DNA from: a virus | Virus record (IMG/VR): IMGVR_UViG_3300043449_001468 | Coordinates: 1 to 62,199 of that record | Length of the DNA stretch: 62,199 nucleotides | Strand: one strand, 5' to 3' | Part shown: in pieces, positions 12,728 through 56,538 of the stretch | Layout of the letters: every line of letters starts with the position of its first letter | Numbering within the stretch: position 1 is the stretch's first letter | Notes under the pieces: generated by a model | Database searches by the model: none | Seen by the model: the letters and a program-made list of their open reading frames with translations, nothing else | What the model was told of the DNA's origin: nothing | Translations under genes and position numbers: made by a program

Positions 12728-12768
12728 TACACCATGATGTGCAACACAGTACAAAGGAGAATTATAGT

Positions 12769-13989
12769 ATGAGTGCAAAGTCCACGAACAGAAAGACATT
12801 CCTATCAGCCGTGGTTGCAACGGGCAAGACCCAAGTAACCACGGCAGACCTCAAAAGGATCTGTGACTCCCTGGACATGAAGGTTCCCCAGTGGTTCACC
12901 AAAGACAGAAAGAATCGTGCTGGTAGGGGGGTATACGTTGTTCCTGGCGCCTCTGCCATCCCAACCAAGGTAGTTGCCCAATCGGATGAGACGGCCACGA
13001 CCGAGTTGACGGCTCGTAGTATTAATCATGGAGGCAGAACGACACCTAGGATCACCTCCTTGATCACAGACATTGAGGACCAGGGTATTGTTCCGGCGAA
13101 ATACAAGAACTATGTGCCATTCGGGAATTTTGAGGATCTCAAATCCATTATCATGTCTCGGCAGTTCTATCCTGTGTTTATCACAGGGCCCTCTGGTAAC
13201 GGAAAAAGTATGTCCGTTGAACAGATCTGTGCCATGCTGGGGCGAGAGTATGTCTGTGTCAGTATGACCCCGGAAACCGACGAAGGAGATCTTCTCGGCA
13301 ACTATATGCTACTGGATAATCAGATGATCTGGCGAGACGGGGCGGTCACTGTCGCAGCACGTAGGGGGGCAGTGCTCTGTATCGATGAAATTGACTATGG
13401 TGCCCAAAATCTTTCGTGCCTTCAGCGGGTCCTTGAGGGGAAACCCTTTCTACTCAAGAAAAAGGGGGAGATCGTCACTCCGGCACCTGGGTTCCAGATC
13501 ATCGCAACGGCCAACACCAAAGGTAAAGGTTCTGAGGATGGTCGCTATATGTTCACCAACGTCCTCAATGAAGCGTTTCTTGAGCGGTTCCCCATTACCT
13601 TTGAACAAGAGTGGGCACCTGCCGCAACGGAGAAACGTATTATCAAGAAGGAATTGGAATCGGCCGGAAGATCGGATGATGAGTTTGCCACACATCTTGT
13701 CACATGGGCCACCGTGGTGCGAAAAGCCTACGAAGAAGAGGGTATCTCAAGCGAAGTCATCTCCACTCGTAGATTGGTACATATTGCCCGGGCATATCCG
13801 ATTTTCAATGGGGACCGCATGAAAGCGATCACCTACTGTCTCAATCGTTTCGACGAAGATACCAAGAAGGCATTCATCGACCTGTATACCAAGGTGGACA
13901 GTTCTATTGTGGCACCGAACACCATGGAGGCTGCTGCCGGTACTAGCATCGAGAATGAGACTCCCGAACCTAGTGGTGCCTGCATCTAG
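12769..13989 (+). CDS. CobS/MoxR-like AAA+ ATPase
   Basis: This 406-residue AAA+ ATPase has Walker A GPSGNGKS at about residue 143, TDEGDLLGNY as in MoxR/CobS proteins, Walker B VLCIDEID, sensor I IIATANT and an arginine-finger region FLERFP. T4-like cyanophages carry a gene usually named cobS with this architecture. CobS works with CobT as the ATPase of aerobic cobaltochelatase, which inserts cobalt into the corrin ring of vitamin B12; MoxR proteins of the same clan instead remodel protein complexes. The N-terminal 100 residues look like a separate DNA- or partner-binding domain. ATG 12769 is preferred to a GTG at 12739 because AAAGGAGA precedes it. A class II, B12-dependent reductase is encoded at 56548, which makes the chelatase idea attractive. 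Confidence 0.8.
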   Translation: MSAKSTNRKTFLSAVVATGKTQVTTADLKRICDSLDMKVPQWFTKDRKNRAGRGVYVVPGASAIPTKVVAQSDETATTELTARSINHGGRTTPRITSLITDIEDQGIVPAKYKNYVPFGNFEDLKSIIMSRQFYPVFITGPSGNGKSMSVEQICAMLGREYVCVSMTPETDEGDLLGNYMLLDNQMIWRDGAVTVAARRGAVLCIDEIDYGAQNLSCLQRVLEGKPFLLKKKGEIVTPAPGFQIIATANTKGKGSEDGRYMFTNVLNEAFLERFPITFEQEWAPAATEKRIIKKELESAGRSDDEFATHLVTWATVVRKAYEEEGISSEVISTRRLVHIARAYPIFNGDRMKAITYCLNRFDEDTKKAFIDLYTKVDSSIVAPNTMEAAAGTSIENETPEPSGACI

Positions 13990-33596: not shown

Positions 33597-34490
33597 ATGA
33601 GGTATATTATGTTCCAGCGAGACTTGGTCATCGGTGCAATCACAGGCTACACATGGAAAGACATTAAATATTGGGTCAACTCCCTAGATCGATCTGGCTT
33701 TAATGGCATTAAAGCCGTCGTTGCCTATAATGTGGATTATGCCACTTGCGATGAGCTGACCAAGCGAGGATACAAAGTCCTTACCTTCCAAAAAGACGAT
33801 GCCAACGGAAGAGTTACTTATCCTAATCCAAATTTTAATATTGTAGTGGATCGGTTCTTGCATTACTATCAAATGCTTGATACTCAGGAGAACCGTAACG
33901 GTATTCGATATGTGATTGCCACAGATGTCAAGGATGTGATCTTCCAACGAAACCCCTCAGAGTATCTGGACGTTCCAGCGATACGCTGCATCGACCTGGT
34001 CATGTCCTCCGAGGGCATCCAATATAAAAACGAGGCCTGGGGTGCCAATAATCTTCGCGAATCGTTTGGCCCGTTGATGTATCACAAGCATGCTGACAAC
34101 ACGATTGTCAACTGTGGGGTCCTTGCTGGCAAGTTTGATGTGTTCCTAGGTCTCTGTAAGACCATTTATCTTCTGTGTGCCCACAATAGACAGTTCATAC
34201 CTGGAGGTGGTGGGCCTGATCAAGCGGCACTCAACTTACTCTTGAACACTCCAGTCTATGATCACATCACCAGCATTACCACGCACGAGGACCCTTGGGC
34301 TGCCCAGCTCGGCACTACGCTCGATCCTACTAAAATAAACACCTATAAACCTTTACTCACTGAACGCCAACCTATTTGGGATTGGACGGAGAACCTGATG
34401 ATCACCCCTAAGGGTAAACCGTATACCTGTGTGCATCAGTGGGACCGTGTTCCTGAAGTACGAGCCGCCGTGGAAAGGATATACGGATAA
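33597..34490 (+). CDS. Glycosyltransferase (GT-A type)
   Basis: This 297-residue protein has IATDVKDVIFQRNP near residue 108 as DxD-like metal site and FIPGGGGPDQAALNLLLNT near 200, a combination typical of nucleotide-sugar transferases with the acceptor loop GPDQ. INCG-like VNCGVLAGKFDVF also fits. It is the first gene of the 8.4 kb glycan cassette and overlaps the next glycosyltransferase by one base. The donor and acceptor are unknown. Confidence 0.75.
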   Translation: MRYIMFQRDLVIGAITGYTWKDIKYWVNSLDRSGFNGIKAVVAYNVDYATCDELTKRGYKVLTFQKDDANGRVTYPNPNFNIVVDRFLHYYQMLDTQENRNGIRYVIATDVKDVIFQRNPSEYLDVPAIRCIDLVMSSEGIQYKNEAWGANNLRESFGPLMYHKHADNTIVNCGVLAGKFDVFLGLCKTIYLLCAHNRQFIPGGGGPDQAALNLLLNTPVYDHITSITTHEDPWAAQLGTTLDPTKINTYKPLLTERQPIWDWTENLMITPKGKPYTCVHQWDRVPEVRAAVERIYG

Positions 34491-35500
34491 TGTCAGATGA
34501 TGAAACCTTAGAGTCTCCTGTATTACGCACCTTACCCACACATGCCAAGCGCATTTTGTATGTAGTCCATAGGTATGGGTATCCCGGTGGATCCGAGCAA
34601 TATACCAAAGATATGGCGGAAGAAACCCGTGCCAGGGGGCATGTGGTGGCGGTATTTGCAGGAGAGCACCAAGGAAACTTCAACGGCGTGAGGGTCTCCT
34701 CGGAGACCAAGATCCTACAGGAGCCATGGGATTTAATTGTGGTGCACGGTGGTGATGTGGCAGTCCAAGATTTTGTATTACAGCATGCCGCTAAACTGGG
34801 AGGACCTGTTCTGTATCTGCTCATTCTTCCCTCACACTCTCTCAATTGCGTGAGAGCACTACGGAACGTCCGATATATTGGATGCTCCACGTTGGCAGAT
34901 TGGAGACACGTAGAATCTTATGGGGTAAGAGACCGTTCGGTTCGTGTGCGCCACGGCATTGTCCCATCCACCTCTAAAGGGACTTCTGGGTTTCGCGAGA
35001 AATTTAATATCACAACCCCGTATATGTTTCTCTCCTCAGGAGGATACTGGCCCAATAAAGCCTTTGCTGAATTGGTAGATGCCTTCGAGAGTCTTGGTCG
35101 TACCGATGCCACGTTGGTACTCACTGGCTATGATAATCGACATGGACTGATGCCCAAGGAATCAACATATGTCAAACCGTTCCTGTTCCCCAATCGCGAG
35201 GATAGTCTTGCAGCACTCCATGCCGCAGACCTCTATATCTTGAATAGCTACACTGAGGGGTTTGGACTGGTGCTGCTGGAATCGATGCTTAATTTAACTC
35301 CTTGGTGTGCCAGAGAGATTGCGGGGGGCGAGGTCATGCGAGAGTATGGGTTTACCTATACCTCACCCGGAGAATTAAAGCTCCATCTACAATCATTCCG
35401 AGGAGTCTCCAATAGTCACCTAGAAGATGCGTATAAGTATGTCATGTCAACCCATCTGATTCGACACACCGTGGATGATATCTTGAAGGTGTTAGGATGA
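34490..35500 (+). CDS. GT4-like glycosyltransferase (GT-B fold)
   Basis: This 336-residue protein has ILYVVHRYGYPGGSEQYTKDMAEE near the N-terminus, the acceptor-side pattern of GT4 enzymes, FLSSGGYWPNKAFAELVDAF as the Rossmann donor domain and NSYTEGFGLVLLESM, with the EGFGLxxLE donor-binding motif and catalytic Glu. It should be a retaining transferase using an NDP-sugar. It overlaps its neighbours on both sides, so it is part of one operon. Confidence 0.85.
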   Translation: MSDDETLESPVLRTLPTHAKRILYVVHRYGYPGGSEQYTKDMAEETRARGHVVAVFAGEHQGNFNGVRVSSETKILQEPWDLIVVHGGDVAVQDFVLQHAAKLGGPVLYLLILPSHSLNCVRALRNVRYIGCSTLADWRHVESYGVRDRSVRVRHGIVPSTSKGTSGFREKFNITTPYMFLSSGGYWPNKAFAELVDAFESLGRTDATLVLTGYDNRHGLMPKESTYVKPFLFPNREDSLAALHAADLYILNSYTEGFGLVLLESMLNLTPWCAREIAGGEVMREYGFTYTSPGELKLHLQSFRGVSNSHLEDAYKYVMSTHLIRHTVDDILKVLG

Positions 35501-35974: not shown

Positions 35975-36658
35975 ATGACATTCACGTTTGGTATTATTTC
36001 CGATTACAGAGCACCTGAACGCCTTCAGGAGATGTATACGTCCATCCGTGCTCTTGGTATACCCCCCACTGCATATGAGATCCTGGTGATTGGCAACGCC
36101 ATATTACCTGACGAACAGGATGTGAGGCATATTCCGTTTGATGAGACGCAGAAACCGATGTGGGTTACTCGCAAGAAGAATATTTTGGATCAAGAAGCCC
36201 GATTTGAAAATCTTGTGGTGGCACATGATTACTATGTGTTCCATCCTGCATGGTATTCCAACTATCTGATGTTCGGGAATGATTGGGAAGTGTGTTCTAA
36301 TGCCCAGCATCTGATGGATGGGTCACGACATTTCTCCGATTGGGTCACTTGGGACTCCCCGTTCTATCCACGATATACCTCGCTGCCCTACGACGATTGG
36401 AGTCACACTAAGTATATGTACCAGTCGGGAGGATATATGGTAGTCAAAAAGGGTGTGTTGTCCAAATTCCCTATGAATGAAACTAAGGGGTGGGGGACTG
36501 CCGAAGATGTCGAGTGGAGTCTTATAATACGGTCCCGCCTAGTGTGGAAATGTAATGGTCGCAGTGTGGTTCGACACAATAAGGCGCATCGTGATCTGGG
36601 ACGACAAGGGTTTCCTTTCAAACAACTCATACACAATAGGACTGAATATGCCCAATAA
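35975..36658 (+). CDS. GT2-like glycosyltransferase, paralogue of the preceding gene
   Basis: This 227-residue protein begins FTFGIISDYRAPERLQEMYTSIRALGI, close to the start of the previous gene. VAHDYYVFHPAWYSNY lies where a metal-binding motif is expected, and GWGTAEDVEWSLIIRSR gives the ED motif of GT2 enzymes. I chose ATG 35975, preceded by GAAGGAC, since an earlier in-frame start lies within the upstream gene. Its end overlaps the HAD-nucleotidyltransferase start by 11 bases. Confidence 0.65.
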   Translation: MTFTFGIISDYRAPERLQEMYTSIRALGIPPTAYEILVIGNAILPDEQDVRHIPFDETQKPMWVTRKKNILDQEARFENLVVAHDYYVFHPAWYSNYLMFGNDWEVCSNAQHLMDGSRHFSDWVTWDSPFYPRYTSLPYDDWSHTKYMYQSGGYMVVKKGVLSKFPMNETKGWGTAEDVEWSLIIRSRLVWKCNGRSVVRHNKAHRDLGRQGFPFKQLIHNRTEYAQ

Positions 36659-38012
36659 ATTAGTGATATGGGACTTAGATGGTGTGCTATTGAATAGCCG
36701 CGAGATTCATTTTAAGGCATTGAATCTCGCACTTCCTCTAGAATATCAAATTAGTTGGGAGGAGCATCTTTCCAAGTATGATGGACTGCCAACCACAAAG
36801 AAACTGCGACTACTTACGGATGAAAAAGGATTGCCAGCAGATATGTATGATGACATATGGGCAGCCAAGCAATACCATACCATAGAATTATATAAAAATA
36901 TTCGCCCAGATCGTGCCTTGCTGGATATGATGTTACATTTGAAAGAGAATAATATCCGCATTGCTGTGGCGTCGAATAGTATTCGCAACACGATGGTCAT
37001 GGCACTTTCGCGATTGGGCATCATCGAACAGATTGACTACATGGTCTCTAATGAGGATGTGAAGCACCCGAAACCTTTTCCGGAGATGTATTGGCAGGCG
37101 ATGACCGCGATGAAAACATTGCCCGCACATACGGTGATTATTGAGGATTCCCATATTGGACGGGAGGCCGCATTGTCCTCTTGCGCCCACTTGATTCCAG
37201 TGCGAGATTCTACGGATCTGAACGATGATCTAATTCTAGGTATCATTAATCATTTGAATGGCGTGTCTCGTGTGCCGATTCCATGGCGCAACAAGAAAAT
37301 GAATGTTGTGATCCCTATGGCAGGACATGGTTCGAGGTTTGCTCAGGCTGGATATACGTTCCCCAAGCCTTTGATTGACGTGAACGGAAAGCCGATGATT
37401 CAGGTTGTAGTAGAAAATCTCAATATCGATGCCCACTATATATTCATAGTTCAAAAGGAGCATTATACCAAATATCAACTACAATACATGCTCAATATGA
37501 TTTCTCCTGGGTGCGACATTATTCAGGTGGAAGGAGTGACCGAGGGAGCGGCATGTACGGTACTGTTAGCCAAGGCCTTGATCGACACGGGAGATCCGCT
37601 GCTAATAGCGAACTCCGATCAATCCGTGGAATGGAATTCTAACGAATGTCTATATGCGTTTACGGCCGATGGGATTGATGGGGGTATTCTTACGTTTAAG
37701 TGTGTTCATCCTCAATACTCCTATGCAAAGTTAGACGCCGAGGGGTTTGTCTCTGAGGTGGCAGAAAAGAAAGTGATTTCAGATATTGCCACGGTGGGGG
37801 TGTATTATTGGAAACGAGGGTCTGACTTTGTGAAGTATGCCGAACAGATGATAGCTAAGAATATTCGTACCAACAATGAGTTTTATGTGTGCCCTGTGTA
37901 CAATGAAATGATTCTAGATGGGAAAAGGATACGAATCAAGAATATCCAAAAGATGTGGGGTTTGGGAACTCCCGAAGACTTGACTTACTATCTCAGGGAG
38001 CACCATCGATGA
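36648..38012 (+). CDS. HAD phosphatase fused to sugar nucleotidyltransferase
   Basis: This 454-residue protein joins two enzymes. Residues 1-215 are a HAD phosphatase: IWDLDGVLLNS (nucleophile Asp), VASNS, KHPKP and IIEDSHIG. From about residue 220 comes a nucleotidyltransferase, VVIPMAGHGSRF (GxGxR-like loop) with FPKPLIDVNGKPMI, LLIANSDQ and NNEFYVCPVYNEMI, as in enzymes that make NDP-sugars. The pair would dephosphorylate one sugar phosphate and activate another with NTP. It overlaps the cupin gene by four bases and stands just upstream of the RuBisCO-like gene. Confidence 0.85.
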   Translation: MPNKLVIWDLDGVLLNSREIHFKALNLALPLEYQISWEEHLSKYDGLPTTKKLRLLTDEKGLPADMYDDIWAAKQYHTIELYKNIRPDRALLDMMLHLKENNIRIAVASNSIRNTMVMALSRLGIIEQIDYMVSNEDVKHPKPFPEMYWQAMTAMKTLPAHTVIIEDSHIGREAALSSCAHLIPVRDSTDLNDDLILGIINHLNGVSRVPIPWRNKKMNVVIPMAGHGSRFAQAGYTFPKPLIDVNGKPMIQVVVENLNIDAHYIFIVQKEHYTKYQLQYMLNMISPGCDIIQVEGVTEGAACTVLLAKALIDTGDPLLIANSDQSVEWNSNECLYAFTADGIDGGILTFKCVHPQYSYAKLDAEGFVSEVAEKKVISDIATVGVYYWKRGSDFVKYAEQMIAKNIRTNNEFYVCPVYNEMILDGKRIRIKNIQKMWGLGTPEDLTYYLREHHR

Positions 38013-38326
38013 GGCATTCGAGACTGGAGGACTACACCAGAGGATGGTTCATTGGCGACTTTGAACCCGCATTACTACGCACCAAAGACTTTGAGGTCTC
38101 TGTCTTTGTGCGAAAGAAAGGGACTCCTCCAGATCCGCATTATCATCATGTCGCCGAGGAATATAATGTATTAATCTCCGGCAGACTGAGCATCAATGGG
38201 TATGAGTTGGTATCGGGTGATGTATTTGTCATCGAACGAGATGAAGTGACCTCATGTGTGTATCATGAGGATTGTACTATTGTGGCCGTGAAAGTTCCAT
38301 CATGTATAGGAGATAAGTATGTTTAA
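38009..38326 (+). CDS. Cupin protein
   Basis: This 105-residue single-domain cupin has DPHYHHVAEEYNVLISGRL (metal-binding His/His/Glu) and GDVFVIERDEV, with a later Cys-rich turn CVYHEDCTIVAVKVP supplying the last His. Small cupins act as isomerases, epimerases, lyases or sensors of sugar derivatives. Between the HAD-nucleotidyltransferase and the RuBisCO-like gene, it most likely works on the same sugar, but the reaction cannot be read from sequence. Confidence 0.75.
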   Translation: MRHSRLEDYTRGWFIGDFEPALLRTKDFEVSVFVRKKGTPPDPHYHHVAEEYNVLISGRLSINGYELVSGDVFVIERDEVTSCVYHEDCTIVAVKVPSCIGDKYV

Positions 38327-39539
38327 TATTTTTAGAGCATCTGAAGATTCCATCCATGAGTCGGATAATTTAGATCCAGAAAAGTACCTCATGGTTCACT
38401 ATGATCTTGAGAGTACGGTGAGTGTTGAGAAAGCGGCATTTGATCTTGCGATTGGACAAAGTGTGGGTAACCCCAACATCCGCAATCGATGGGAAACCGA
38501 TGAGTTGTTTGAGAAGTATTCTTGTAGGGTGGATACTCCTAGAGGATTTCTACGGGATAAGACACGCGCCGAGGTGACGATTGCGTTTCCTGTGATCAAT
38601 ACGGATTGGGATGGGGATGGCATCGCACATTTACTATGCCAGGTGCTCGGCGGGCAAGCTGATATCGGACATATCATCCGCTGTAGGATCAATGGCTTCA
38701 CATTTCCCCGCTCTGTGACTAGTCGATTCTCCCCGCCTCGGTTTGGCATGAGCGGGCTTCGTGCGTTCACGGGGCAAGCTGATAAGCCATTGTTCGGCGG
38801 AATCATTAAACCTAAGACTGGGCTGCCCCCCGATCAATTGCTCGATATGGTCAGGGAGTTGGTAGATGGGGGGGTGGATTTCATTAAGGAGGACGAGATT
38901 CTTTCCAATCCCGCTTTCTGTTCATTGGAGAATCGAGTCCCGCTTATTGCCAGATACATACAATCATGTGGTCGCAACGTGATTTATTGTTTCTCTATCA
39001 ATGGGGACCCACACACAATTGAACAACGAGCGATATATCTGGCCAATGAGGGGGCCAATGGGGTGCATATAAATTTTTGGAGTGGATTGGGAGCCTATCA
39101 TACCATTCGCCGACTGAACCTCCCCCTATTTCTACACTTCCAAAAGAGCGGCGATAAGGTTATTACACATAAAGGAAATGCCTTTGGTATGTCGTGGTTT
39201 GCCATGTGCCAGCTTGCCGCACTCTCCGGAGTGGACTCCATTCATGCCGGAATGTTTGGAGGTTATATGAACAGTGATACGATAGAGTTGAAGTCGGTCA
39301 TGGATCTCCTTGGGAATAGTAATGTGGTGCCCGCCTTATCCTGTGGGATGCATCCTGGGCTTGTGGAACATGTCACCAAGAATGTTGGGGTCGATTATAT
39401 GGCTAATGTCGGCGGTGCGTTGCATGGGCATCCAGGAGGCACTCTTGCCGGATGTAAGGCCATGCGACAGGCCATCGACCACAGCCACGGACTAGAATAT
39501 GAACAGGCGATTCAAACCTGGGGGTTGACCCATGAATGA
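38319..39539 (+). CDS. RuBisCO-like protein (form IV type)
   Basis: This 406-residue protein has the RuBisCO large-subunit barrel. GIIKPKTGLPPDQ gives K164 and K166 (RuBisCO K175, K177). GGVDFIKEDE gives the carbamate lysine K190 with D192 and E193 (K201, D203, E204). SIHAGMFGGYMNSD gives H309 (H327), SCGMHPG the S379 region and VGGALHGHPGG the phosphate-binding GG. The loop 6 lysine K334 is replaced (Tyr316), and the N-terminal E60-type residue is not seen, so carboxylation is unlikely. RuBisCO-like proteins act as enolases, isomerases or decarboxylases on sugar phosphates. The gene overlaps the cupin and the next glycosyltransferase, so it belongs to this cassette. Confidence 0.93.
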   Translation: MFNIFRASEDSIHESDNLDPEKYLMVHYDLESTVSVEKAAFDLAIGQSVGNPNIRNRWETDELFEKYSCRVDTPRGFLRDKTRAEVTIAFPVINTDWDGDGIAHLLCQVLGGQADIGHIIRCRINGFTFPRSVTSRFSPPRFGMSGLRAFTGQADKPLFGGIIKPKTGLPPDQLLDMVRELVDGGVDFIKEDEILSNPAFCSLENRVPLIARYIQSCGRNVIYCFSINGDPHTIEQRAIYLANEGANGVHINFWSGLGAYHTIRRLNLPLFLHFQKSGDKVITHKGNAFGMSWFAMCQLAALSGVDSIHAGMFGGYMNSDTIELKSVMDLLGNSNVVPALSCGMHPGLVEHVTKNVGVDYMANVGGALHGHPGGTLAGCKAMRQAIDHSHGLEYEQAIQTWGLTHE

Positions 39540-40323
39540 TCTATCGGTATGGATTCTAACATTCAATAGACCCTATGCGCTAAACCGACTCATTACTGAA
39601 TTGGGGCGACAAGGTATTCGTTCTAACGTACTATCAAATTATTCATCTGTACAATATACCAAAGAATCTATGTCGTATGTGGACAAGACGGTGATCAATA
39701 CGCTCAACACCGACGAGTCCAACGCATGGTGTGGGCGCAGCTGGAATAGTATCATGCTGAAGGCATTCTCTGTCTCGCCTAATCTCATCATGATTCAAGA
39801 TGACACGTTTGTGCGACCGCATTTCTCCGCATGGTTCGAGTCCAATAGGAAGAAGTATGATTTTATTTGGGGGCCAGCAGGGGATCAATTCTTCTATCTA
39901 ACCTTGAATGTGTTGCGTACTACTGGGTGGTTCGATGAGCGATTCACTTCCGGATATTGTGGCGATGCTGATTTTTTGAAGCGGGTATGTGCGTCATATC
40001 CTCTCAGTAAAATTAGCGTTGAGGAGTCCCACGACTGGGGATTCCGCCATAACCCAATCGGGACCTCTGAGGTCATCATCACCGATTTGGGTAGCAAGCA
40101 GATCGACCCCAATTATGAAAATGCCCACTGGTACATGGAACGGCTCAAGACCAAGGAAATTAACCGCAATTTGGAATATTCTCAGGGATACTTTCTTCGG
40201 AAATGGGGGCACGTTTTGAATAACAATCAGCCTGTGATAAATTCAAATGTGCGATTAATAGAGGAGATTGATTGGTATCCATGGGCCACCAAGAAATATG
40301 AGGTCACCGCATATGATCTATAA
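39532..40323 (+). CDS. Glycosyltransferase (GT-A, GT2-like)
   Basis: This 263-residue protein begins LSVWILTFNRPYALNRLITELGRQG and has IMIQDDTFVRPH near residue 85 as the metal-binding DD motif, then GWFDERFTSGYCGDADFLKRV, an acceptor loop typical of GT2-like enzymes. It overlaps the RuBisCO-like gene by eight bases and the methyltransferase by eleven. It may transfer the sugar made by the genes just upstream. Confidence 0.75.
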   Translation: MNDLSVWILTFNRPYALNRLITELGRQGIRSNVLSNYSSVQYTKESMSYVDKTVINTLNTDESNAWCGRSWNSIMLKAFSVSPNLIMIQDDTFVRPHFSAWFESNRKKYDFIWGPAGDQFFYLTLNVLRTTGWFDERFTSGYCGDADFLKRVCASYPLSKISVEESHDWGFRHNPIGTSEVIITDLGSKQIDPNYENAHWYMERLKTKEINRNLEYSQGYFLRKWGHVLNNNQPVINSNVRLIEEIDWYPWATKKYEVTAYDL

Positions 40324-40964
40324 TCTGTTCCAAAATAATATACAATTCGAATGGAACACCAAGCGATTGAATAAATTGGTGTCGCTTCTTGGTCCTAGAT
40401 GGTTTGCAGGTAAAAAAATCCTAGAAGTGGGGGCTGGCCATGGCAGCACAGGGAAGTCCTTGTTGTGGCTGGGGGCTCATGTTGTGTTTACGGATGCGCG
40501 GAGTGTTCATGTAAACCACCTCAAATCCTGCGGACTGGATGCCCATATAATGGATCAGGATTCTGAGTGGACCATCCAAGGTCCATTTGATTTGATTATC
40601 CACTGGGGGGGTGTCGTACCATCTTAGAAATTGGCAGCAAGATCTGAGGTGTGCGTTCAATCGATCCTCCTTGGTATGTTTTGAAACTGAGGTTGCGGAC
40701 TCACCTTCCGCGGACTTTGAGTCTACGCTCACCGAAATTGATCACTATGATCAGGCGTTTAATCGAGTGGGAACCTTGCTGTCTCCAGCCAGGATAGAAT
40801 CCTTCCTCGCCGAGCATAATATGACGGCGACTAGGTATGATACCCCCGATATAGACACCGGAGGGACCGCCAAATGGTATTCGTGGAAACCAGGATCCAC
40901 AACACCTGACGATGTTCGGTGCCGGCGCCTGCGGCGCTTTTGGATGATTAGGAGAAAACTATGA
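40313..40964 (+). pseudogene. SAM methyltransferase interrupted at a G7 tract
   Basis: The first frame (40313-40627) encodes a class I methyltransferase start: KKILEVGAGHGSTGKSLLWLG (SAM motif I), VVFTDARSVHV and FDLIIHWGG, then VVPS and a stop. The second frame (up to 40964) continues YHLRNWQQDLRCAF and SLVCFETEVADS, exactly what follows HWG in such enzymes. Removing one G from the seven-G run at 40605-40611 joins them into about 216 residues (HWGVSYHLRNW). So the gene is off by one base: a phase-variable tract, a frameshift-translated gene, a real inactivation or a sequencing error. It would methylate a sugar of the phage or host glycan. Confidence 0.8.
40605..40611 (+). repeat. Homopolymer G7 at the frameshift
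   Basis: Seven consecutive G at the point where the methyltransferase frame is lost. Six or nine G would restore one reading frame. Long G runs are classic slip sites in phase-variable surface-sugar genes. Confidence 0.9.
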
Positions 40965-41491
40965 AGATAATCGTTGAAATTGGGGCACATACAGGCATGG
41001 AGACCCTCAAGTTTTTGGCAGATCCTGATGCCCAGGTCTATGCGTTTGAGCCGGAACAGCATCTATTTGCTCAACTCTATCAGCGATACGGATCGTACCC
41101 ACGACTCACGGTGCTCCCTTTCGCGGTGGACATCGGGGACAATCAAGGACCACTCTTCCACTACGGCGATGGCAAGAGTACATTAGATCCTCCCATGTTC
41201 GGAGGCCCTCAGGCTGCATTTACGATGACGTGGACCATTAGACTCGACACCTTTATGCGACTCTATGACATCGAGAAGATTGATTATCTTCGTATCGATG
41301 CTCCATGGCGAGAGGAAATGTGCCTTGAAAGTCTTGGGGATCGTGTAAAAGACGTTGAGCGTGGGCGCATTCGGAGATATGACCCCAAGGGACCTGTCCC
41401 TGCGTGGCTCTATGATCATGGGTTTTCTATGCAACTAGATAGTTTAGTGGATCGCATAACTGAGCCGGACATTAGGTTTTGGCGTCAATAG
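40961..41491 (+). CDS. FkbM-family methyltransferase
   Basis: This 176-residue protein has VEIGAHTGMETLKFL (SAM motif I), VYAFEPEQHLFAQL and LPFAVDIGDNQG, then TIRLDTFMRLYDIEKIDYLRIDA, the succession of motifs in FkbM-type O-methyltransferases. It is on the short side for the family. It overlaps the broken methyltransferase by four bases. Likely substrate: a hydroxyl on a sugar or side group of the glycan made by the cassette. Confidence 0.8.
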   Translation: MKIIVEIGAHTGMETLKFLADPDAQVYAFEPEQHLFAQLYQRYGSYPRLTVLPFAVDIGDNQGPLFHYGDGKSTLDPPMFGGPQAAFTMTWTIRLDTFMRLYDIEKIDYLRIDAPWREEMCLESLGDRVKDVERGRIRRYDPKGPVPAWLYDHGFSMQLDSLVDRITEPDIRFWRQ

Positions 41492-41523: not shown

Positions 41524-41994
41524 ATGATTCTCATCTCCCATAGAGGAAATATCGAAGGGGCTGATACATGGTTAGAAAACACCCCCAACTATATCGACAA
41601 TGCTATTGCGCTTGGGTATCAGGTGGAAGTGGATGTATGGGGAGAGGACGGTGTATTGTGGTTGGGGCATGATCGCCCCATGTACAAAATCACTCCTGAG
41701 TGGTTGGACCAACGCGGCGATGTGTTGTGGTTACACTGCAAGAATGTCCACGCTCTGAGTATTCTCATGCAGGACTTTCCATGGATTCGCTACTTTCTCC
41801 ATAACAAAGATCCATATGCGATGGTGAATTTGGGGTATATTTGGTGCTATCCTTCTGCCCCACCTCCAGTATCCAAGGGTATTATTGTGCTTCCTGAGAC
41901 ATGGCTCTCCAAGGAGGAGACCTCTTCATATGTTTCCTCTCATCACGCTGAGGGAATTTGCTCAGATTATATCGCAAGATACCAGAACATATAA
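41524..41994 (+). CDS. Glycerophosphodiester phosphodiesterase-like protein
   Basis: This 156-residue protein begins ILISHRGNIEGADTWLENTPNYIDNAIALGYQVEVDVWGEDGVLWLGHD, matching the HRG, ENT, ExDV and GHD motifs of the GDPD/PI-PLC-like barrel. It is shorter than full GDPD enzymes (about 230-250), lacking part of the barrel. Similar proteins occur in polysaccharide loci, so it may act on phosphodiester-linked glycans. It ends the cassette; a late promoter overlaps its stop. Confidence 0.75.
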   Translation: MILISHRGNIEGADTWLENTPNYIDNAIALGYQVEVDVWGEDGVLWLGHDRPMYKITPEWLDQRGDVLWLHCKNVHALSILMQDFPWIRYFLHNKDPYAMVNLGYIWCYPSAPPPVSKGIIVLPETWLSKEETSSYVSSHHAEGICSDYIARYQNI

Positions 41995-54784: not shown

Positions 54785-55846
54785 ATGTCTCTTCATGTAG
54801 ATTTGAAATATGCCAGTTTACTTGCCTGCCATCTGGAAAAATTCACCCGCAAGGGAGATTATCTCTTCAATTTCAGGTGCCCTCTTTGTGGGGACTCTCA
54901 AACCAAAAAAACAAAGTGTCGTGGCTACATATATCGAGCACGTCAGCGCCTGAAATTCAAATGCCACAATTGCCTTGAAAATCAATGGCTCGGCGCGATT
55001 ATTAAACAGGTCGCGCCAACCCTCTATAAGGAATATATACTTGAGACGTTCTTGGGCACGCCATCTGTCCTAGCACCTCCACAAAGTCGAAGTATTGTGC
55101 AAGGCCCCGATACGGGCATGAGATTTGGCCTCGTTGAGCCTCAAATCTATCAGCATGCAGAAAAGATTTCTGATCTGCCAGAAGCGCACTATTGCCGTCA
55201 GTATGTAAAGTCGCGTCAAATACCCGTTCAGTTCTGGAATAAACTATACTTTACGGCACACTATAAAGATTTTTTGGATGAGGTGTTTCCCGAACATGGG
55301 AAACCAGTCAAAGACGATGCGCGACTGGTGATCCCATACTACTCACCATATGGGGAAGTTGTTGCGGTTACAGGGCGTGCCCTGGAAAATGGCAATAACA
55401 AAATTCGATATGTCACGGTGCGAGCACCCCAAGATACCCATAAGCTGATCTATGGGCTGGATCGTGTCGATCAAGGTAAGCGGGTATTGGTGGTCGAAGG
55501 TCCATTGGATTCATTGTTTCTCGACAACGCGGTGGCATCCGGGGACGCCAATCTGATCGCCGTGGAAGCCTCATTGTCGGCCGCTCAAGTGACCCTCATC
55601 TACGATAACGAAAAACGCAATGCGGATATCGTGCGCCAGATGGAACGTGCCATCAATATGGGTCATTCGGTGGTCATCTGGCCTGACTGGCTGAAAGAAA
55701 AAGATATCAATGCAATGATCCTGGCTGGAAATTCGCAAGCGGTCATACACAGTATTATACATAGTCATACATATTCAGGATTGAGAGCGTTGGTGCATCT
55801 TAACAATTGGAAGAAAACTCCAAGCAGAAAGGAAATGTTGGTATGA
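54785..55846 (+). CDS. 61: DNA primase gp61
   Basis: This 353-residue primase has an N-terminal zinc ribbon, CPLCGDSQTKK and FKCHNC, as in gp61 and DnaG. The TOPRIM-type core shows RLVIPYYSPYGEVVAVTGRAL and RVLVVEGPLDSLFLDNA (catalytic Glu), then VTLIYDNEKRN. It makes RNA primers at the fork with helicase gp41. I chose ATG 54785 because SLHVDLKYASLL starts the protein naturally; the near-adjacent promoter suggests a leaderless mRNA. Its stop overlaps the thyX start. Confidence 0.88.
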   Translation: MSLHVDLKYASLLACHLEKFTRKGDYLFNFRCPLCGDSQTKKTKCRGYIYRARQRLKFKCHNCLENQWLGAIIKQVAPTLYKEYILETFLGTPSVLAPPQSRSIVQGPDTGMRFGLVEPQIYQHAEKISDLPEAHYCRQYVKSRQIPVQFWNKLYFTAHYKDFLDEVFPEHGKPVKDDARLVIPYYSPYGEVVAVTGRALENGNNKIRYVTVRAPQDTHKLIYGLDRVDQGKRVLVVEGPLDSLFLDNAVASGDANLIAVEASLSAAQVTLIYDNEKRNADIVRQMERAINMGHSVVIWPDWLKEKDINAMILAGNSQAVIHSIIHSHTYSGLRALVHLNNWKKTPSRKEMLV

Positions 55847-56538
55847 ATGTTGGTATGAATGATGCGGTTAAATTATTGGACCATGGGCATGTGCGATTGG
55901 TGGATCATATGGGCTCTGACCTCTCGATTGTTCGATCTGCCCGGGTGAGTTATAACGCCGAATGGCGCTCAGGTGAAGATGAAGGTAAAGATTCCAAGTT
56001 GATCAATTATCTGATCAAGAATCGACACACCACACCTTTTGAATCGGTAACATTTACCTTTGAGGTGAAGGCGCCTATCATGGTCTTTCGCCAATGGCAC
56101 CGCCACAGAACGTGGGCATATAATGAGGTCTCCGCACGATACACAGAGTTGCCTGAGGAATACTATATCCCTGCCCTAGAGGTAATCACTTTACAGTCGG
56201 CGAGCAATAAACAAATGCGAACTGATGAATTGCATCCCCAGGGAGAACTGATTCGCAAGATCATGCGAGAATCAAACGAGCGATCCTTTGCGGCCTATAA
56301 ACAATTATTGGGTATTGGGTGCCCCAGAGAACTGGCGCGTTCGGTATTGCCCGTGGCTACATACTCACATATGTTTGCCACCACAAATTTACACAACATG
56401 CTGCATTTCCTGGGTCTCAGATGCCATACCCATGCTCAACATGAAATCCGAGTCTATGCAGTCGCCATGTTAGAACTCATTCGCCCAATTGTCCCTGTGA
56501 CGATTGCGGCATGGGAAGAACATTACAACAAGAAGTAA
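55843..56538 (+). CDS. thyX: Flavin-dependent thymidylate synthase ThyX
   Basis: This 231-residue enzyme has the ThyX signature RHRTWAYNEVSARY (RHRxxSxNExSxRY with the Ser replaced by Ala) after APIMVFRQWH, plus HTTPFESVTFTF. It methylates dUMP to dTMP using methylene-tetrahydrofolate and FAD, and is fed by the dCMP deaminase at 14925. The start region is a tandem 12-bp duplication (ATGTTGGTATGA twice), giving two possible starts, 55843 and 55855. It overlaps the primase stop. Confidence 0.93.
   Translation: MNVGMNDAVKLLDHGHVRLVDHMGSDLSIVRSARVSYNAEWRSGEDEGKDSKLINYLIKNRHTTPFESVTFTFEVKAPIMVFRQWHRHRTWAYNEVSARYTELPEEYYIPALEVITLQSASNKQMRTDELHPQGELIRKIMRESNERSFAAYKQLLGIGCPRELARSVLPVATYSHMFATTNLHNMLHFLGLRCHTHAQHEIRVYAVAMLELIRPIVPVTIAAWEEHYNKK

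Follow-up and report, generated by a model that had tools for sequence, protein, structure and literature searches.

The cassette and its phage

The window analyzed here is a 62,199-nucleotide stretch of viral DNA, IMG/VR record IMGVR_UViG_3300043449_001468. We describe a gene in it for a RuBisCO-like protein (RLP) and the cassette around this gene, whose features are as follows.

33597..34490, plus strand: glycosyltransferase-like gene (phrog_1579), kept in window-like relatives
34490..35500, plus strand: GT4-type glycosyltransferase (PF00534, 3.8e-10)
36555..38012, plus strand: HAD domain (beta-phosphoglucomutase-like) fused to a sugar-1-phosphate nucleotidyltransferase (PF13419, 5e-27; PF00483, 8e-11)
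38009..38326 (open reading frame opens at 37955), plus strand: small cupin of about 105 aa with a GWFIGDFEP motif and an HxH...E metal motif (phrog_24762, 2.5e-28; alignment)
38319..39539, plus strand: RLP gene, 406 aa (PF00016, 2e-39; structure; 277 viral relatives)
38808..38816, plus strand: codons of K164-P165-K166 (RuBisCO K175 and K177), invariant in 81 viral sequences
38886..38897, plus strand: codons of K190-E191-D192-E193 (predicted carbamate Lys and Mg ligands; KEDE, not KDDE)
39141..39146, plus strand: codons of Q275-K276 (RuBisCO H294-R295 sites), Q275 in 28/28 family rows
39264..39266, plus strand: codon of Y316 (loop-6 K334 site), Tyr in 28/28 family and 81/81 viral rows
39532..40323, plus strand: putative glycosyltransferase overlapping the RLP stop (no Pfam match; cluster 10)
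40961..41491, plus strand: FkbM-family methyltransferase (PF05050, 5.5e-6)
41524..41994, plus strand: compact GDPD-like protein with HRG, ExD, and GHD catalytic motifs (alignment; PDB GDPD, 3e-4)

The RLP open reading frame (ORF) is complete, with an AGGAG ribosome-binding site directly 5′. At each end it shares 8 nt with the neighboring gene, the cupin (stop at 38326) on one side and the glycosyltransferase (start at 39532) on the other; the initial annotation had noted both overlaps. The model of the GDPD-like protein has a pLDDT of 95, and its top Foldseek matches are GDPDs, at modest TM scores. The alignment of these GDPD-like proteins contains no segment of sufficient conservation to serve as a scan query. 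At positions 40268 to 40964, a methyltransferase is broken into two ORFs (119 and 117 aa) that overlap, where relatives have a single ORF of about 216 to 221 aa (cluster 17); the split is probably a frameshift, either real or an assembly error. A promoter scan of the window returned 27 sites, with 26.7 expected.

The window also encodes a T4-type DNA polymerase, a DnaB-like replicative helicase, and an SbcC/gp46-like protein and has baseplate-type matches (phrog_262, phrog_19, and phrog_77 all lie in this contig), and the T4-type replication proteins bear out its description as a T4-like phage. Twelve other long contigs with an RLP, possibly fragments, include five with a T4-type polymerase. 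At 12739 to 13989 lies a gene for a CobS-like protein (phrog_249, "porphyrin biosynthesis"); T4-like cyanophages are known to have such proteins. An assembly chimera at the cassette, a possibility raised in the initial annotation, is unlikely because independent contigs (L002, L003, L004, and L011) share cassette-flanking genes with the window on one or both sides.

Fold, active site, and phylogeny

The catalytic-domain profile of the RuBisCO superfamily, PF00016, matches the protein at an E value of 2e-39. An AlphaFold model computed from an alignment of 26 family members (pLDDT, 90.1; pTM, 0.90) has as its top Foldseek match 2d69, a type III RuBisCO (E = 2.7e-31; TM, 0.84). Profile and fold thus place the protein in the superfamily and uphold its first identification as a RuBisCO-like protein. 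The closest PDB match by sequence is 3nwr, the B. fungorum RLP. Relative to the window copy, pN is about 0.15 to 0.23 with synonymous sites near saturation, and the gene evolves under strong purifying selection.

Among 81 aligned viral RLPs, K164, K166, K190, E191, D192, E193, Y316, S341, G343, G365, and G366 are invariant. K190 corresponds to the carbamate lysine of RuBisCO, K201, and is predicted to be carbamylated; with D192 and E193 it makes up the Mg center of the superfamily. S341, G343, G365, and G366 are retained phosphate-site residues. The lysine pair, Mg-center triad, and glycine pair that were initially read as a conserved barrel signature are thereby confirmed, and H309 is not invariant: this position (RuBisCO H327) is His in 57 and Gln in 24 of the 81 sequences.

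In true RuBisCO, K334, H294, N123, E60, and R295 are catalytic or substrate-binding residues. All 28 family rows of the tree set described below share the substitutions H294 to Q275, K334 to Y316, N123 to G112, E60 to G46, D202 to E191, and G380 to C342, together with the further distinctive residues H250 and N51-P52. The loss of the loop-6 lysine to Tyr316, already reported for the window, thus holds throughout the family. In the other superfamily groups, position 275 is His with few exceptions; the R295 equivalent is mostly Lys, and Lys or Ser across the family. K166, equivalent to K177, is retained here and lost from the sampled MtnW, OiaX, and tetronate RLPs. With Tyr, Gln, Gly, and Gly for K334, H294, N123, and E60, the protein does not have the residues of a carboxylating form I to III RuBisCO, and residue comparison makes it a form IV RLP in the broad sense, a RuBisCO homolog without carboxylation residues. 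Judged by its sequence, it is not a carboxylase. Established RuBisCO enzymology suggests that this pattern would fit an enzyme still able to bind Mg2+ and enolize a phosphorylated ketose, short of several carboxylation residues.

A maximum-likelihood tree of 71 proteins, of the kind proposed in the initial annotation, resolves the RLP family as one clade with 100/100 support. Outside this clade fall forms I and III, CPR and archaeal RuBisCO, MtnW, MtnW-like proteins, OiaX, and the RLPs linked to four-carbon acid sugar kinases (tetronate-kinase-linked RLPs). The form IV assignment of the initial annotation therefore stands in the broad sense and fails in the narrow one, as the clade lies outside every form IV group sampled (MtnW, MtnW-like, OiaX, tetronate-kinase-linked, and an alphaproteobacterial RLP group). 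Q275, Y316, G112, E191, C342, H250, and N51-P52 serve as markers of this phage/SAR11 clade. A profile built from the viral RLPs separates the two sets: no family member scores below 287 bits, and no other sampled superfamily member above 202.

Distribution

Relatives in IMG/VR numbered 224 in a first scan and 277 in an alignment-based scan, and the best 80 of 224 and the best 80 of 277 were retained. No relatives were found among 50,697 INPHARED phage records, in PHROGs, or, by fold, in BFVD. Across the genomes of 84,980 bacterial and archaeal species, 33 matches were obtained, about 20 of which score as the true RLP family. The cellular carriers are several SAR11 single-cell genomes, Verrucomicrobiia, Elusimicrobia, Azospirillum, three Legionella species, and DPANN archaea. 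Far from being peculiar to this phage, the RLP occurs on viral contigs by the hundred and in certain bacteria and archaea. Two candidate cellular loci were set aside as probable phage DNA in bins: L082, which is identical to the viral locus L017, and L099, which has phage-like genes. The cellular loci relied on are L085, L086, L091, L092, L097, L098, and L100 to L102; L091 and L092 include what we take, from sequence, to be SAR11 housekeeping genes (hflK/hflC-like, pheST-like, lepA, and gyrB).

Neither form I/III RuBisCO motifs nor OiaX/tetronate RLP motifs found any relatives when scanned against IMG/VR; these scans use short motifs that can miss divergent forms, and form II and MtnW lie outside their design. 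Set against the 277 RLPs, these empty scans suggest that most viral RuBisCO homologs in IMG/VR belong to this family.

Gene neighborhood

Around the RLP gene in 48 distinct viral loci with sufficient flank, a sugar-1-phosphate nucleotidyltransferase is nearby in 47, a small cupin in 40, and a GDPD-like gene in 38; 32 of the loci have all three. Counted from the cupin instead, three scans gave 106 distinct cassettes, with a nucleotidyltransferase in 104, a GDPD in 81, and an RLP in 78. Some RLP loci lack the cupin, and some the GDPD. In cells, a linked sugar nucleotidyltransferase also accompanies the RLP in Legionella, Elusimicrobia, Azospirillum, and Verrucomicrobiia, and Azospirillum oleiclasticum has the operon GDPD-RLP-cupin-nucleotidyltransferase. 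An apparent 706-aa RLP-nucleotidyltransferase fusion in Azospirillum (L098) was rejected, the long ORF being out of frame and the genes separate. No cupin was found in the SAR11 and Legionella genomes tested.

O-antigen-type loci hold the RLP in two alphaproteobacterial contigs, one of them SAR11. In an alphaproteobacterial single cell (L086), nucleotidyltransferase, cupin, RLP, and GDPD are followed by a dehydratase, an RmlA-type protein, DegT, and a Wzx-type flippase; in SAR11 SAG-MED47 (L085), the neighbors of the cassette are two Wzy_C proteins and a WecA-type transferase (Glycos_transf_4). The RLP and nucleotidyltransferase pair of three Legionella species (L100 to L102) lies beside LicD (PF04991, 1e-42 in L100), which was looked for and not found in phage RLP loci. 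Because of the linkage to nucleotidyltransferase, cupin, and GDPD and of these O-antigen-type and LicD loci in cells, the context of the RLP is surface-glycan synthesis. The glycan-cassette setting of the initial annotation is thus substantiated, except that the adjacent glycosyltransferase it singled out varies between loci; the relevant partners are the nucleotidyltransferase, the cupin, and the GDPD-like protein.

Other neighbors were recorded in particular groups of loci. In eight related viral loci (L026, L027, L036, L038, L040, L041, L053, and L055), a kinase-like gene, a 3-dehydroquinate-synthase-like cyclase (PF01761, 6e-36), and an SDR lie 3′ of the RLP, with a radical-SAM-like gene also 3′ in most of them; these loci suggest a phage cyclitol pathway. 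In three SAR11 loci (L087, L091, and L093), a ThyX-like gene (cluster 20) lies directly 5′ of a GDPD-nucleotidyltransferase-RLP cassette, and a gene of this cluster is also present in the window at 55807 to 56538. In SAR11, the RLP is flanked by two different nucleotidyltransferase-like genes.

Cupin cassettes differ in their content of HAD-fold genes of sugar-phosphate type. Of those without an RLP, 26/28 have such a gene, 12 of them with a PF03332-like phosphomannomutase; of those with an RLP, 13/78 have one and 65/78 have none. The kinds seen in RLP-less cassettes are eukaryotic-type phosphomannomutase (PF03332), beta-phosphoglucomutase-like HAD, and nucleotidyltransferase with a C-terminal HAD. 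In five phage cassettes (L202, L208, L213, L223, and L225), the phosphomannomutase-like protein adjoins the nucleotidyltransferase, cupin, and GDPD. This distribution suggests that the nucleotidyltransferase can receive its sugar phosphate by way of either an RLP or a HAD. The exclusion has a Fisher p of 2.6e-6, but this value is not taken at face value because the cupin tree holds just 1 to 6 phylogenetically independent pairs. Nor is replacement of HAD by RLP strict, as the window clade has both an RLP and a HAD domain fused to the nucleotidyltransferase. Fusions of the window type are common in viral glycan cassettes without an RLP (79/80 loci, L247 to L326, of which 53/80 have a GDPD-like gene), and so the fused gene may serve another sugar in the window.

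Proposed function

We consider it fairly probable that the RLP represents a distinct, mainly phage-borne family serving the synthesis of nucleotide sugars for glycans rather than the fixation of carbon; the enzyme probably helps build an unusual surface sugar. Known RLPs catalyze MTRu-1-P isomerization as well as enolization (PMC6302742). The RLP would act as a Mg2+-dependent, non-carboxylating isomerase or enolase on a phosphorylated ketose, and its product would be the sugar phosphate that enters nucleotide activation and glycan assembly. Carbamylated K190, with D192 and E193, would hold Mg2+, which would chelate the carbonyl and hydroxyl of the ketose; a lysine of the K164-P-K166 motif would shift a proton to give an enediolate, whose reprotonation at another carbon or face would yield an isomerized or epimerized sugar phosphate. 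By homology, Q275, His or Gln at 309, and Y316 would line the active site. The cupin, as a partner sugar isomerase or epimerase, may complete the isomerization, the nucleotidyltransferase would convert the product to an NDP-sugar, and the neighboring glycosyl- and methyltransferases would install the sugar on a glycan of the host surface or the virion. The catalytic motifs and structural matches of the GDPD-like enzyme indicate that a phosphodiester may be involved, which would probably be cleaved or transferred by this enzyme within the pathway.

The RLP could instead follow the activation step and epimerize, dehydrate, or isomerize the NDP-sugar, an order for which the nucleotidyltransferase linkage in 47/48 loci would be equally expected. 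This is unlikely, since the substrates of the known RLPs cited are phosphorylated ketoses or acids, the phosphate-site residues are retained, and RLP-less cassettes put a phosphosugar mutase or phosphatase-type HAD in the place of the RLP.

Extending the proposal of an RLP acting before activation, phages and some marine or host-associated microbes may have in common a nucleotide-sugar pathway not yet described, whose sugar phosphate comes from a RuBisCO-superfamily enzyme through chemistry so far unseen in the superfamily, with most viral RuBisCO homologs being this glycan enzyme and not a carbon-fixation gene; we put this forward tentatively, at a little under even odds. Superfamily members have so far been linked to the fixation of carbon, the salvage of nucleotides and of methionine, and the catabolism of sugar acids; a part in making surface glycans, if true, would add a new branch. 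The cassettes common to phages and SAR11 surface-polysaccharide loci point to a glycan relevant to phage-host interaction, and the function of the RLP and nucleotidyltransferase pair is directly testable through the NDP-sugar made.

Comparison with known systems

OiaX, the 3-oxo-isoapionate-4-phosphate decarboxylase, shares with the RLP the fold, the Mg site, and Gly at the N123 position. The RLP might accordingly decarboxylate or transcarboxylate a sugar-acid phosphate (branched or keto) in the manner of OiaX, giving the glycan an apiose- or tetrose-like unit, and the match to OiaX model NF042437 (5e-47) and the top PDB sequence match to 3nwr agree with this. We nevertheless regard it as quite unlikely: the score of 160.6 bits lies far from the equivalog cut-off of 700, OiaX and the tetronate RLPs form another clade, and no acid-sugar kinase was seen in the RLP cassettes. 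The K177 position is Lys in the RLP and Ala or Ser in OiaX, the K334 position Tyr in the RLP and Lys in OiaX, and Q275 and C342 also differ; the neighbors of OiaX are catabolic.

MtnW, the 2,3-diketo-5-methylthiopentyl-1-phosphate enolase, resembles the RLP in the loss of E60 (Gly) and K334 and in a likely proton-transfer chemistry. The R. rubrum RLP, an MTRu-1-P isomerase likened here by description and not by sequence, has a cupin partner and the isomerase-type chemistry of our model. A methionine-salvage RLP of either type, whose cupin partner would be the methylsulfurylase of the MTA-isoprenoid shunt, would match the pairing of RLP and cupin in the R. rubrum pathway (PMC10663253), but is very improbable. 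Scores on the MtnW models are 139 bits against a cut-off of 409 (NF007095) and 108 against 514 (TIGR03332), the MtnW Lys at window position 112 is Gly, and MtnW forms a separate clade, in agreement with the initial annotation that this is not MtnW. The partners here are sugar-nucleotide genes (nucleotidyltransferase, GDPD, and glycosyltransferases) where those in R. rubrum are methylthio-salvage genes, and no methionine-salvage genes were seen in the loci inspected. The RLP is thus real, neither MtnW nor OiaX, new within the RuBisCO superfamily, and found in a consistent glycan-biosynthesis setting.

Marine homologs from the GOS survey were reportedly named form IV-GOS by Tabita in 2007. As far as the available text of the survey goes, it describes 65 RuBisCO homologs outside all known forms and no cassette or viral origin for them (PMC1821046). 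Likened by description only, as marine, uncultured, and outside the known forms, these may be the same family as the SAR11 and marine-phage RLPs.

Type III RuBisCO of Pyrococcus horikoshii (2d69/2cwx) shares with the RLP its fold (TM, 0.84) and the equivalents of K175, K177, K201, D203, E204, S379, G403, and G404. From such likeness the RLP could be read as a carbon-fixation auxiliary gene (rbcL) carboxylating ribulose bisphosphate for the infected host. Viral rbcL or "RbcL-like" auxiliary metabolic genes (AMGs) have been so annotated (PMC8506154, PMC12607003, and PMC13390420), and a soil viral rbcL co-expressed with rbcS is reported to have measured carboxylation activity (PMC12615777), according to the text available from these papers. 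For the RLP this role is scarcely credible: K334, H294, N123, and E60 are Tyr, Gln, Gly, and Gly, and R295 is Lys or Ser across the family; the clade is separate from forms I to III, with 173 bits on the type III model TIGR03326 against a cut-off of 497; and its partners are glycan genes, with no Calvin-cycle genes seen beside it in the loci inspected. The initial annotation knew of no RLP in such a phage pathway. This holds for the family and its cassette, of which we found no description in the available text of the viral rbcL AMG literature (likened by description, not sequence), although not for viral rbcL AMGs as such, already reported in the four papers cited above.

Viral "rbcL" matches are being published as evidence of virus-boosted CO2 fixation. 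Since the IMG/VR scans gave 277 RLPs and no form I/III relatives, such claims need their loop-6 and H294 residues checked. The RLP family is large, previously uncharted, viral and bacterial, and travels with sugar-activating genes, with which it probably helps build a surface sugar; viral "rbcL" genes of this family should therefore not be counted as carbon fixation. The AMG reports, in the parts available, concern RuBisCO-superfamily genes on viral contigs, as we do here, and read them as carbon fixation.
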